From: Holophagaceae bacterium
GTDB taxonomy: Bacteria > Acidobacteriota > Holophagae > Holophagales > Holophagaceae
DNA: 64,000 bases
Assembly: GCA_021286765.1 (NCBI GenBank)
Contig: JAJTBS010000001.1
Span: 1-64,000, forward strand
Reading direction: 5' to 3'
Positions 12,462 through 19,224 of the stretch are shown here, in pieces (positions within the stretch are counted from its first letter, which is position 1; every line of letters begins with the position of its first letter). The notes under the pieces were generated by a model, which ran no database searches, was not told the origin of the DNA, and saw only the letters and a program-made list of their open reading frames with translations. Both the position numbers and the translations under genes were made by a program.

Positions 12462-13295
12462 ATGCGCAAGCCCTTTGCAGTGACGGTCACCTCGGTTTCG
12501 TTCGTGCTGCTGCATCTGGCCTGCCTGGCGGCGATCTGGCTGGCCTTCTCCTGGAAGCTGGTGGCGCTCTGCGCCGGGCTCTACCTGATCCGCATGTTTG
12601 CTGTCACGGCGGGCTACCACCGCTACTTCAGCCATCGCACCTACCGGCTGGGCCGCGTGCCCCAGTTCCTGCTGGCCTTTGTGGCCCAGACCTCGGCGCA
12701 GAAGGGCGTGCTCTGGTGGGCGGCCCACCACCGCCACCACCACCGGTTCTCGGACACCGCGCAGGATCTGCACTCGCCCGTGACAGATGGGTTCTGGTGG
12801 TCCCATGTGGGGTGGATCCTGTCGGATGCGCATGATCACTACGACCCCAGGTCCATCGAAGATTTCGGCCGGTTCCCGGAGCTGCGCTTCCTGGATGCCT
12901 ACCACTGGCTCTGCCCATGGCTGCTGGGTACCGCCACCTTCGTCTTCGGAGCCTGGACCGGCATCGGCGCCTGGGAATCGCTCGTGTGGGGCTTCGTCAT
13001 CTCCACGGTGCTGCTCTGGCACGGGACCTTCTGCATCAACTCGCTCACCCATGTCTGGGGCACGCGCCGCTTCGACACGAAGGACCAAAGCCGCAACAAC
13101 TTCCTGCTGGCCCTCATCACCCTGGGCGAGGGCTGGCACAACAACCACCACCACTATCAGGCCAGCTGCCGCCAGGGCATCCGCTGGTGGGAGGTCGACC
13201 CCACCTACTACGTGCTGAAGGTCCTGAGCTGGGTGCGCATCGTACGCGACATCCGAACCTTCCCAGCCTCCGCCATGGTGGCACCCGGGTCATGA
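12462..13295 (+). CDS. Acyl-CoA/acyl-lipid delta-9 type fatty acid desaturase
   Basis: A 277-residue membrane di-iron desaturase that inserts a cis double bond into saturated fatty acyl chains using O2 and electrons. The three histidine boxes are intact: HRYFSHR (53-59), HHRHHH (89-94) and HNNHHHY (226-232). Hydrophobic segments around 10-45 and 150-190 give the usual four-helix membrane topology. It is the first gene of an eight-gene overlapping lipid operon; its stop overlaps the next start (ATGA). Need for O2 implies aerobic expression. No dedicated ferredoxin or reductase gene is adjacent. Confidence 0.93.
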   Translation: MRKPFAVTVTSVSFVLLHLACLAAIWLAFSWKLVALCAGLYLIRMFAVTAGYHRYFSHRTYRLGRVPQFLLAFVAQTSAQKGVLWWAAHHRHHHRFSDTAQDLHSPVTDGFWWSHVGWILSDAHDHYDPRSIEDFGRFPELRFLDAYHWLCPWLLGTATFVFGAWTGIGAWESLVWGFVISTVLLWHGTFCINSLTHVWGTRRFDTKDQSRNNFLLALITLGEGWHNNHHHYQASCRQGIRWWEVDPTYYVLKVLSWVRIVRDIRTFPASAMVAPGS

Positions 13296-14545
13296 GCTGC
13301 ATCGCCGTCATCGGCTCTGGAATCGCGGGACTGTCCACCGCCTGGCTGCTCAGCCGCGAACATGAAGTCTGGGTCTTCGAGAAGGAAGGCCGGATCGGCG
13401 GCCACACGCACACGGTCACCGTGGATGCCCCCGAAGGGCCCGTGGCGGTGGACACAGGCTTCATCGTCCACAACCGGGTGAACTACCCGAACTTCATCCG
13501 GCTCATGGAGGAGCTGGGCATCGACACCTGTCCCAGCAACATGAGCTTCGCCGCCAGCGGCAACGCGCATCCCTGGTGCAGCCGCGGCCTGAACGGCCTG
13601 TTCACCGAGCGGCGTCACCTGGTGGCTCCGGCCTTCTTCGGCCTCTGGGCCGAGGTCCTGCGCTTCAATCGGCTGGCCCCGGCGCTGCTGGACCGTGCCG
13701 AGGCCGAAGGGCCGACCCTCGGCGAGTACCTGGCCCACCACAGGTTCTCCCAGCGGTTCAAGTCCGAGTACCTCTACCCCATGGCTGGCGCGGTGTGGTC
13801 CACGAGCCTGGTGGACATGGAGCAGTTCCCGGCCGTCACCCTGGCCCGGTTCTTCCACAACCACGGTTTCCTCGGCGTGACCACGCATCACCCCTGGCGC
13901 ACCATCCCCGGCGGGACTTCGCGCTACCTGGACCCGATCACCCGGCCCTTCCGGGAACGCATCGTGACCGGCGCCCGGATCATCGGCGTCCGGCGATCTG
14001 AAGGGGCCGTCCACCTGCACCTGGAAGGGCAGGAGGCCCGGTCCTTCGATCACGTGGTCTTCGCCTGTCACGGCGACCAGGTGTTGGCGCTCCTGGCGGA
14101 TGCCACACCCCAGGAGCGGGAGGTGTTCAGCGCCTTCACCAGCAACTTGAGCCCCACCTTGCTGCACCACGACCCTGCCCTGCTGCCCGCCAAACGCCGA
14201 GGCTGGGCCTCCTGGAATTTCCGGGCGCATGGGGATGCCGGGCGTCTGGTGCTGACCTACCACATGAACCGCCTCCAGCCCCTGGGCACCCGCCAGGACT
14301 GGTTCGTGAGCCTGCATGCGGAGGATCTGCTGGATCCCGCGGCCATCGCCGGCCGCTATGCCTACGAGCATCCCCGCTTCACCCGCGAGGCCATCTGCGC
14401 TCAGGCGCGCTGGGCGGAGGTCAGCGGCCCGGCCTCTCATCACGGCCGCACCCACTACGCCGGCGCCTACTGGACCTATGGATTTCATGAGGATGGCGTT
14501 CGGTCGGGAATCCGTGTCGCACGTGGCCTGGGGGTCACATGGTGA
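13292..14545 (+). CDS. FAD-dependent amine-oxidase-like oxidoreductase (COG2907 type)
   Basis: 417 residues starting at ATG 13292, which overlaps the desaturase stop by 4 bases. An N-terminal Rossmann motif (VIGSGIAGLSTAWLLS) and the following FEKEGRIGGHTHTV are diagnostic of the flavin-containing amine oxidase/phytoene desaturase fold. The family is regularly found beside DUF1365 and cyclopropane synthase genes, for example in the RpoE-ChrR regulon of alphaproteobacteria. In Rhodobacter a relative takes part in furan fatty acid formation. A similar oxidation of membrane acyl chains is a reasonable but unproven guess. The last ~17 codons are duplicated immediately downstream. Confidence 0.88.
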   Translation: MSCIAVIGSGIAGLSTAWLLSREHEVWVFEKEGRIGGHTHTVTVDAPEGPVAVDTGFIVHNRVNYPNFIRLMEELGIDTCPSNMSFAASGNAHPWCSRGLNGLFTERRHLVAPAFFGLWAEVLRFNRLAPALLDRAEAEGPTLGEYLAHHRFSQRFKSEYLYPMAGAVWSTSLVDMEQFPAVTLARFFHNHGFLGVTTHHPWRTIPGGTSRYLDPITRPFRERIVTGARIIGVRRSEGAVHLHLEGQEARSFDHVVFACHGDQVLALLADATPQEREVFSAFTSNLSPTLLHHDPALLPAKRRGWASWNFRAHGDAGRLVLTYHMNRLQPLGTRQDWFVSLHAEDLLDPAAIAGRYAYEHPRFTREAICAQARWAEVSGPASHHGRTHYAGAYWTYGFHEDGVRSGIRVARGLGVTW

Positions 14546-17426: not shown

Positions 17427-18205
17427 TGGCCGCGGCGATCTGGGGCACGGGACTCCTGAGCCTGTTGCAGGTGGGCTTCTGGCTCCGGCAGTGCCGCACC
17501 CGCAATGCCGGCTGGGTGGACGTGGGCTGGTCCCTGGGGTTGGCCGTCATGGCGATCCTGGCCGCGGGGCTGGGGCCGGCGCCCCTGGAGCGGCGGTTCC
17601 TCGTGGGCTTCATGGGCGGTCTGCATGGCCTGCGCCTTGGGCTGCACCTCTGGCGCAGGGTGGCCCGTGATCCCCACGAGGATGGCCGCTACCAGTCGAT
17701 CCGCGCGGCCTGGGGGACGCGCCTGAACGCGAAGTTCTTTGTCTTCTTCCAGGCCCAGGCGCTGCTTGACGTGCTGCTGGGGCTGCCCTTTCTGCTGGCG
17801 GCCTGGAACCCGCGGCCGGGGTTGCACCCCCTGGAGTGGGCCGCGGCAGCCCTGTGGCTGGGAGCCTGGTTCGGCGAGGCCCTGGCCGACCGCCAGCTTC
17901 GGCGGTTCAAGGCCCGGACCGAGGCGAGGGGCCGAACCTGCCGCGAGGGCCTGTGGCGCTACTCGCGCCACCCCAACTATTTCTTCGAGTGGCTGGTATG
18001 GGTGGCCTACTTCCTGCTGGCCCTGCCCGCCCCCTGGGGCTGGACCGCGGTGCTGTGCCCGGCGTTGATGCTGTATTTCCTGCTGCGGGTGACCGGGATT
18101 CCCTATACCGAGGCCCAGTGCCGGCGCAGCCGCCCCGAGGACTACGCCCGCTACCAGCGGGAAACCTCGCCCTTCATCCCCTGGTTTCCGAGGGCCCCAG
18201 CATGA
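17423..18205 (+). CDS. DUF1295 / steroid 5-alpha-reductase-like membrane protein
   Basis: 260 residues with about six membrane helices. The C-terminal segment ([18 protein letters not shown] ... [18 protein letters not shown]) is the signature of the DUF1295 / isoprenylcysteine methyltransferase-steroid reductase superfamily (COG3752). Such proteins reduce or methylate hydrophobic substrates in the membrane, using NADPH or SAM; the RHPNYF motif is expected at the cofactor site. In this operon it may reduce or modify acyl chains. An alternative ATG lies one codon downstream (17426). Confidence 0.85.
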
Positions 18206-19224
18206 TGGATACCCTGCTCGCTTCCGGCCTCGTGCCCGATGGGCTCATCCGTCTTCGCATCCGGCAGCTGCTTCGCCAGCGCTTGCGGGAAGAGGCAGCG
18301 GGGGGCCTCGAGGCGGCCCACGGAAACCTCCGCCAGCACCTGGCGGCCTGGTCCGCGGGTCCCGTCGCGGTGCACACCCAGGATGCCAACGAGCAGCACT
18401 ACGAGGTGCCGCCCCGGTTCTTCGAGCTGGTCCTCGGGCCGCACCTCAAGTACAGCTCCGGCCTGTTCGAGCCGGGAACATCAGCGTTGGGTCAGGCCGA
18501 GGCGGCCATGCTGGCCCTCACCTGCGAGCGGGCGCAGCTGGCCGATGGGCAGGACATCCTGGAACTGGGCTGCGGCTGGGGCAGCCTCACGCTGTGGATG
18601 GCCCAGCACTTTCCCGCGAGCCGCATCACCGGGGTCTCGAATTCCAGGGACCAGCGGGCCTTCATCCTGGCGCGGGCCGCTGAGCGCGGGCTGGCCAACG
18701 TGGAGATCCTCACGGCTGACATGAACACCTTCGAGGCGCCCGGCGCTTACGACCGGGTGGTGAGCGTGGAGATGTTCGAGCACATGCGCAACCACCGGGA
18801 ACTGATGGCCCGCATCGCCCGGTGGCTGCGCCCCGGTGGGGAGCTGTTCGTCCACATCTTCACCCACCGGGACTTCACCTACCCATTCGAGGTCCGCGAC
18901 GACTCCGACTGGATGGCGAAGCACTTCTTCACGGGCGGCATCATGCCTTCCGACAGCTACCTGCTGCGGTTCCAGGAACAGTTGCACCTGGCGGACCACT
19001 GGCGCGTCTCCGGCATCCACTACCAGGCCACGGCCGAGGCCTGGCTGCGGAACCAGGATGCGCACCGGGAAGAGATCCTCAGCCTGTTCCGGGCCACCTA
19101 CGGGGCCGAAGCTCCCTGGCGCTTCGTGCAATGGCGCATCTTCTTCCTGGCCTGCGCCGAGCTGTGGGGCTTCCGGGGCGGCTCCGAGTGGTTCGTCAGC
19201 CACTACCGCTTCCGCCGCCCCTGA
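18202..19224 (+). CDS. Second Cfa-like SAM-dependent methyltransferase
   Basis: 340 residues, shorter than Cfa. N-terminal helix-rich ~75 residues are followed by a Cfa-type region ([18 protein letters not shown]), SAM motif I ([16 protein letters not shown]), and [17 protein letters not shown]. The C-terminal half differs from the cfa product at 15362 ([17 protein letters not shown]). It resembles the COG2230-related methyltransferase found with COG2907 in photo-oxidative-stress operons, where the Rhodobacter relative (UfaM) methylates an acyl chain. It ends the operon; 44 bases separate it from the next gene. Confidence 0.87.

Follow-up and report, generated by a model that had tools for sequence, protein, structure and literature searches.

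We analyzed a 64-kb window (positions 1 to 64,000 of contig JAJTBS010000001.1, assembly GCA_021286765.1) from a Holophagaceae bacterium, in which a candidate operon for furan fatty acid (FuFA) biosynthesis occupies positions 12462-19224 (Table 1). The eight open reading frames found there lie on one strand, at the positions and in the order given by the initial annotation of this DNA, and their families were confirmed by Pfam as FA_desaturase, Amino_oxidase (COG2907 type), DUF1365, CMAS, DUF1475, DUF2062, DUF1295 and a second CMAS protein, in this order. Stop/start overlaps had been described throughout the operon, which we found at six of the seven junctions: there are ATGA overlaps at 13292, 16956, 17423 and 18202, a TGATG (or GTGATG) overlap at 16624-16629, and an overlap of 85 nt between ufaO and the likeliest ufaM start (ATG 15362). 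The exception is the ufaD/ufaO junction, at which the ufaD stop at 14545 and the ufaO ATG at 14646 are 100 nt apart.

Table 1. Genes and features of the candidate furan fatty acid operon, in window coordinates
Feature	Position	Strand	Evidence
Acyl desaturase, SCD1 type, 277 aa (gene 1)	12462..13295	+	PF00487, 62.8 bits; three His boxes HRYFSH, HHRHHH, HNNHHH
UfaD-type flavin desaturase (COG2907), 417 aa (gene 2)	13292..14545	+	PF01593, E=2e-22; R. palustris homologue
ufaD/ufaO spacer, 100 nt	14546..14645	+	Repeat of ufaD 3' end; two inverted repeats; 37-codon frame
UfaO-type enzyme (DUF1365), predicted O2-dependent furan-ring-forming step (gene 3)	14646..15446	+	PF07103, E=1e-78
UfaM-type SAM-dependent acyl methylase (gene 4)	15362..16627 (start inferred)	+	PF02353, E=2e-88; clade; Gln at Cfa His266
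DUF1475 small membrane protein (gene 5)	16624..16959 (GTG 16624 or ATG 16627)	+	PF07343, 33 bits
DUF2062 membrane protein (gene 6)	16956..17426	+	PF09835, 42.7 bits
DUF1295 membrane protein, sterol-reductase/steroid-5-alpha-reductase fold (gene 7)	17423..18205	+	PF06966, E=2e-63; model
FufM-type methylase, 340 aa (gene 8)	18202..19224	+	R. palustris homologue, 48%; CNMT match in PDB

The pathway known from Rhodobacter and Rhodopseudomonas starts with methylation of cis-vaccenate by UfaM; UfaD then desaturates the product, UfaO (a DUF1365 protein) closes the furan ring, for which O2 supplies the oxygen, and FufM adds a second methyl group (PMC7380195). In R. palustris, RPA2571-2570-2569 stand in the order UfaD-UfaO-UfaM, and these genes make the monomethyl FuFA (PMC7380195). 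Our reference was R. palustris JSC-3b, which was reached by a FufM-profile scan of named genomes (L125) and its UfaD-UfaO-UfaM locus (L143) by a DUF1365 search. We found that the three genes are contiguous and in the same order here and in JSC-3b, and that the UfaD, UfaO and UfaM types are all present, with identities to JSC-3b of 39% for gene 2 (over 410 aa), 35% for gene 3 (over 262 aa) and 38% for gene 4, all within 262-410 aa. The initial annotation had treated the COG2907-DUF1365-Cfa group and UfaD/UfaO/UfaM as two comparisons; these are the same genes, and by homology the set appears to correspond to UfaD-UfaO-UfaM. DUF1365, which had been counted as uncharacterised, is the UfaO family (PMC7380195).

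The desaturase (gene 1) has acyl-CoA desaturase 1 (4ymk, E=2e-30) as its best PDB match and is 48% identical to the desaturase of an Acinetobacter operon considered below. We propose that it supplies the cis-monoene substrate, noting that the same genome has a second desaturase at C6:76327. The UfaO model (predicted local distance difference test score, pLDDT, 93) combines a beta barrel and a C-terminal helix and has invariant His16, His24, Asn107 and Lys159, which might steer a search for a cofactor. The fold search returned weak lipocalin/nitrobindin-like barrels alone, at a Z of 7.5 that is level with unrelated barrels, and we therefore claim no mechanism for UfaO.

We consider it highly probable that the operon specifies a complete FuFA pathway whose substrates are the acyl chains of phospholipids, with a predicted product and with reactions that are read from homology and gene order. 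In this pathway, the desaturase would make a cis-monoene, UfaM (gene 4) would transfer a methyl group to it from S-adenosylmethionine (SAM), UfaD (gene 2) would desaturate the product to a conjugated methyl-diene, UfaO (gene 3) would close the furan ring with oxygen from O2, and FufM (gene 8) would methylate the furan a second time. The earlier proposal, in which a co-oriented operon serves the O2-dependent modification of a membrane fatty acid and is akin to the furan pathway of Rhodobacter, is supported by homologues and gene order. The lipid, which had been thought possibly undescribed, need not be so, because a monomethyl and then a dimethyl acid of the known furan class explains five of the eight genes; the operon is a variant of a known pathway, not a route to an unknown lipid, and its new element is DUF1295.

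Several points weigh against this assignment. The support for it consists of genes and homology, and the furan product in this organism is a prediction. By raw identity, gene 4 is as near E. coli Cfa (43%) as R. palustris UfaM (38%, in JSC-3b); this measure fails to tell UfaM from Cfa and was set aside as a criterion, and the assignment of gene 4 therefore rests on the tree, an active-site residue and the neighbours. Glutamine at the position of His266 of E. coli Cfa, which gene 4 carries, also occurs in some plant cyclopropane synthases, so that this residue alone cannot decide against cyclopropanation. The furan activity of gene 8 is likewise predicted, and its plant relatives include N-methyltransferases. 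Finally, DUF1295 is not essential for the dimethyl product: FufM alone gives that product in Rhodobacter and in vitro (PMC7380195), and the most likely place of DUF1295 is therefore alongside ring methylation or downstream of it.

We examined conservation in a phylum sample of 297 genomes, with the FufM class called at E<1e-100. DUF1365 was present in 42 of these genomes and the FufM class in 32, and 31 of the 32 FufM genomes also have UfaO (Fisher p about 1e-31, with no phylogenetic correction); in the remaining one (G132), fufM lies near a contig end. Within the genus the system is all-or-none, with UfaO, FufM and full-length DUF1295 in 4 of 22 genomes (G000, G205, G244 and G260) and none of them in the others. 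Judged by its gene order and by the DUF1295 tree, the G244 operon looks nearer to that of genus g2 (L015), which suggests transfer or differential loss.

Around DUF1365, we surveyed 40 phylum-sample loci, counting genes within the fetched stretch, and found UfaD in 39, UfaM in 38, DUF1295 in 23, FufM in 22 and the desaturase in 17. Neighbourhoods in which the genes are not kept together had been named beforehand as grounds for refuting the proposal; this objection failed, given the co-occurrence of FufM with UfaO described above. All eight genes share a single locus in L012 and L014, which are of the same genus, and likewise in L016 and L021, which represent two further lineages. Because the whole set recurs in these four, we take it to be more than chance. 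Moreover, in L021 and L037 the genes form two opposed blocks, desaturase-UfaD-UfaO-UfaM versus DUF1475-DUF2062-DUF1295(-FufM), and we therefore read the operon in the window as two joined modules, one for the monomethyl furan and one for the second methylation.

The initial annotation had called the last gene a second Cfa-like methyltransferase. Instead, gene 8 appears from its sequence to be a FufM-type methylase, of FufM/coclaurine N-methyltransferase (CNMT) type, and not a second cyclopropane synthase: it shares 48% identity with the JSC-3b FufM homologue across 336 aa, compared to 33% with UfaM and 31% with E. coli Cfa, and among PDB entries it matches coclaurine N-methyltransferase best (6gkv, E=6e-71), whereas Cfa reaches E=4e-25. 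If gene 8 is of FufM type, a dimethyl FuFA is the predicted end product. Its nearest solved structures are coclaurine and pavine N-methyltransferases, and the plant protein AT4G33110 is one that we take to belong to the CNMT family. AT4G33110 is homologous to FufM (PMC10940516), and R. palustris FufM (RPA0924) is reported to be a furan methylase by deletion and in vitro data (PMC7380195). An alternative suggested by the solved N-methyltransferase relatives is that the pathway ends at the monomethyl furan acid and that gene 8 methylates some other target, such as a lipid head group or an amine, with DUF1295 taking part in that reaction. The location of fufM and DUF1295 on another contig or at another locus than ufaDOM in some genomes would fit this idea as well, but the presence of UfaO in all but one of the FufM genomes and the furan methylase activity of the R. 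palustris homologue argue against it, and we regard it as unlikely.

To place gene 4, we compared 109 CMAS proteins in a tree that included E. coli Cfa, the methylases of ufa/fufM loci and unlinked Cfas of the phylum sample. The 81 ufa/fufM-locus methylases, with gene 4 among them, cluster in a single clade (support 0.994), which also takes in two unlinked phylum-sample proteins. One of these two is from G255, in which no UfaM lies in the operon stretch that was fetched. The remaining 17 unlinked Cfas group with E. coli Cfa in a separate clade. At the position of E. coli Cfa His266, all 78 of the operon-linked proteins, including gene 4, have glutamine, and 16 of the 19 unlinked proteins have histidine. 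Of Cys139, Glu239, His266, Ile268 and Tyr317, which we take to be the bicarbonate-site residues of E. coli Cfa, gene 4 keeps four and has glutamine for His266, so that the full Cfa set is absent. Thus, gene 4 appears on tree, residue and neighbours to be of UfaM type and not a Cfa. Two Cfa annotations would ordinarily be taken to mean that cyclopropane fatty acids are made and that the other genes act as modifiers; the identity of gene 4 to E. coli Cfa, its strong CMAS match and the four retained residues (Cys139, Glu239, Ile268 and Tyr317) favour this view. However, gene 4 falls outside the clade of E. coli Cfa and the unlinked phylum-sample Cfas, it has glutamine in place of His266, its type is linked to UfaD and UfaO across the sample, and the genome has no third CMAS protein at E<1e-20; we think cyclopropane products quite unlikely.

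We found that DUF1295 is a conserved partner of fufM, in Alpha-, Beta- and Gammaproteobacteria as well as in this phylum, that is absent from the published pathway. Counting adjacency (same strand, ≤300 nt) in 80 named proteobacterial loci, including that of R. palustris, we found DUF1295 beside fufM in 65, and in 63 of these the two are ≤20 nt apart or overlap. In JSC-3b, DUF1295 lies directly upstream of fufM, joined by an ATGA overlap, and is 42% identical to the protein in the window. In the DUF1295 tree, 92 of 96 FufM-linked copies group with 3 of 20 sampled unlinked ones, although the key split has modest support (0.8) and depends on midpoint rooting; the family is broader than this partnership, as FufM is missing from 50 of the 81 genomes that carry a full-length copy. 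The strain list of PMC7380195 contains deletions of RPA0923 and of RPA0923-0924, and its main text gives no RPA0923 result; judging from the gene order in JSC-3b, RPA0923, the neighbour of fufM, is presumably the DUF1295 gene. In the DUF1295 literature, judged by titles, only a Chlamydomonas singlet-oxygen study (PMC4067076) was tied to this context.

The description of DUF1295 as reductase-like agrees with its model (pLDDT 96), which matches delta14-sterol reductase (4quv) with a Z of 14.8 (228 residues, 3.6 A), steroid-5-alpha-reductase (7c83) with a Z of 14.1 (209 residues, 4.3 A) and ICMT with a Z of 11.8. The model thus suggests that DUF1295 shares the fold of sterol reductase and steroid-5-alpha-reductase, a fold that is also that of the SAM-dependent ICMT. 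A search of the genome with PF01222 (ERG4_ERG24) gave no match and was uninformative, as the control likewise matched nowhere. We propose that DUF1295 may act with FufM as an NADPH-type ene-reductase. Its most plausible substrate would be the reactive ene-dione that forms after singlet-oxygen quenching; this step would suit an ene-reductase fold but is a speculative guess. The broader proposal, that DUF1295 is an overlooked ene-reductase-like enzyme of FuFA metabolism that reduces either the furan or the singlet-oxygen ene-dione, so that furan lipids would be a recyclable or detoxified trap, is one that we hold tentatively, as a possibility with somewhat less in its favour than against. If it is true, furan lipids would be a renewable or detoxified trap for singlet oxygen, not a one-shot sacrificial one.

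A lipid not yet described could still result if DUF1295, DUF1475 and DUF2062 converted the furan further, for example to a tetrahydrofuran acid, with the furan as an intermediate. DUF1295 has an NADPH ene-reductase fold, is the tightest partner of FufM and is needed by no published step, all of which would suit such a conversion. Against it, R. palustris accumulates 9D5-FuFA as such, and fufM in JSC-3b also has DUF1295 directly upstream; we give this further conversion a rather small chance. DUF1475, found in 14 of the 40 phylum-sample ufa loci and frequently adjoining DUF1295-fufM, and DUF2062, found in 7 of the 40, are probably lineage accessories.

Gene 2 belongs to the amine-oxidase type (PF01593) and is not a BfaA/TmsA-type FAD protein, and BfaA presumably belongs to a different FAD family. 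Mid-chain methyl-branched saturated acids such as 10-methylstearate, made in the manner of BfaB/BfaA or TmsB/TmsA and with either DUF1295 or UfaD serving as reductase, are very improbable: a SAM methylase, a FAD protein and a reductase-fold protein are present, and two-gene pathways of this kind exist (PMC5660069), but the FAD protein is of amine-oxidase/COG2907 type with a desaturase as its relative (PMC7380195), and UfaO and FufM would be left without a role.

We considered the regulation of the predicted FuFA operon. The sigmaE-ChrR (ECF11) pair is absent from the 64-kb window. A check for an RpoE/ChrR-type regulator, which had been suggested, succeeded in relatives, as the pair lies inside the operon of the same-genus G244 (L013) and is also present in L015; in the genome of the window it returned a ChrR-like cupin protein at C5:11115 that scores 58.9 bits, below the cut-off of 124.5, and is unlinked to the operon. 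Next to this zinc-finger/cupin ChrR-like anti-sigma factor on contig C5 (L052 1440-2880) is a gene that reads as an extracytoplasmic function sigma factor. Among the 80 named loci, sigmaE and ChrR relatives are near FufM in 40, and DUF2177 in 53. Caballeronia and Burkholderia plasmids carry sigmaE-antisigma-DUF1295-FufM-lipocalin-UfaD-UfaO-UfaM, and ChrR is near DUF1295-FufM on Mesorhizobium, Shinella and Rhizobium plasmids.

The ufaD/ufaO junction, at which the operon has its only gap, is itself unusual. Within the spacer, the 3' end of ufaD is repeated, the two copies being 67 nt long and 88% identical, and a frame of 37 codons overlaps the ufaD stop. The region (window 14533-14655) also has two hairpin-like inverted repeats, GCGAGAggTCTCGC and GCATCCGCtcaGCGGATGC, the latter of which shows paired changes in L014. 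The spacer was found in L012 and L014 and is missing from L016; a genomic repeat was ruled out, as the genome search returned only its own copy. The two ufaD 3'-end copies look more similar within one genome than across genomes. In G244, sigmaE, ChrR, a lipocalin and an SRPBCC protein lie between ufaD and ufaO, the junction that holds the duplicated spacer here, and the spacer is possibly the scar of a former insertion at this site. The insertions in relatives span L013 7245-9637 and L015 10373-12290; both have sigmaE, ChrR and lipocalin, and the SRPBCC gene is also in L013.

Two flanking genes were ruled out as members of the operon. The exporter gene 3' of it occurs in 12 of 23 sampled genus genomes, mostly without the operon, and the homologue of the response regulator 5' of it is on a different contig from the operon in G260. 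Thus, the edges of the operon are natural. Just upstream, on the same strand (window 7058-12380), we observed a 1477-aa protein that reads as a multi-PAS histidine kinase with a C-terminal receiver, plus a separate response regulator.

FuFAs are antioxidant lipids of plants, fish and microbes that act as membrane scavengers of damaging reactive oxygen. Our literature search found experimentally supported FuFA biosynthesis solely for two alphaproteobacteria (PMC7380195) and turned up no FuFA report for this phylum. One operon with the whole predicted dimethyl pathway is a compact clonable set, and its fixed companions DUF1295, DUF1475 and the desaturase point to missing players in the pathway.

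Among known systems, one is a set of nuclear genes in Chlamydomonas, whose likeness is by family names: DUF1295, DUF1365, DUF2177, CFA1 and CFA2 need SAK1 for their co-induction by singlet oxygen (PMC4067076), and CFA2 (Cre09.g398700) is listed in another table of that paper as CPLD27, a coclaurine N-methyltransferase; the product is not identified there. Rhodobacter (Cereibacter) sphaeroides, with RSP1091-1087 and ufaM RSP2144, has UfaD, UfaO and UfaM in common with the window, but its ufaM is unlinked, its operon partners RSP1089-1087 are dispensable, its product is monomethyl only, and it is controlled by sigmaE-ChrR. Plasmid pYH12207-1 of Acinetobacter piscicola (L057), a system known from its genes alone, has the same six-gene order as here, desaturase-UfaD-UfaO-UfaM-DUF1295-FufM, although it is plasmid-borne and lacks DUF1475 and DUF2062. 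R. palustris RPA2569-2571 (ufaM-ufaO-ufaD) and RPA0924 (fufM) have the four enzyme families in common with the window and keep UfaD, UfaO and UfaM in the same order, and the JSC-3b homologues are 35-48% identical. In R. palustris, fufM is at a separate locus (PMC7380195), whereas here a single operon holds all four and adds the desaturase, DUF1475 and DUF2062. DUF1295, although absent from the published R. palustris pathway, is directly upstream of fufM both in JSC-3b and here.

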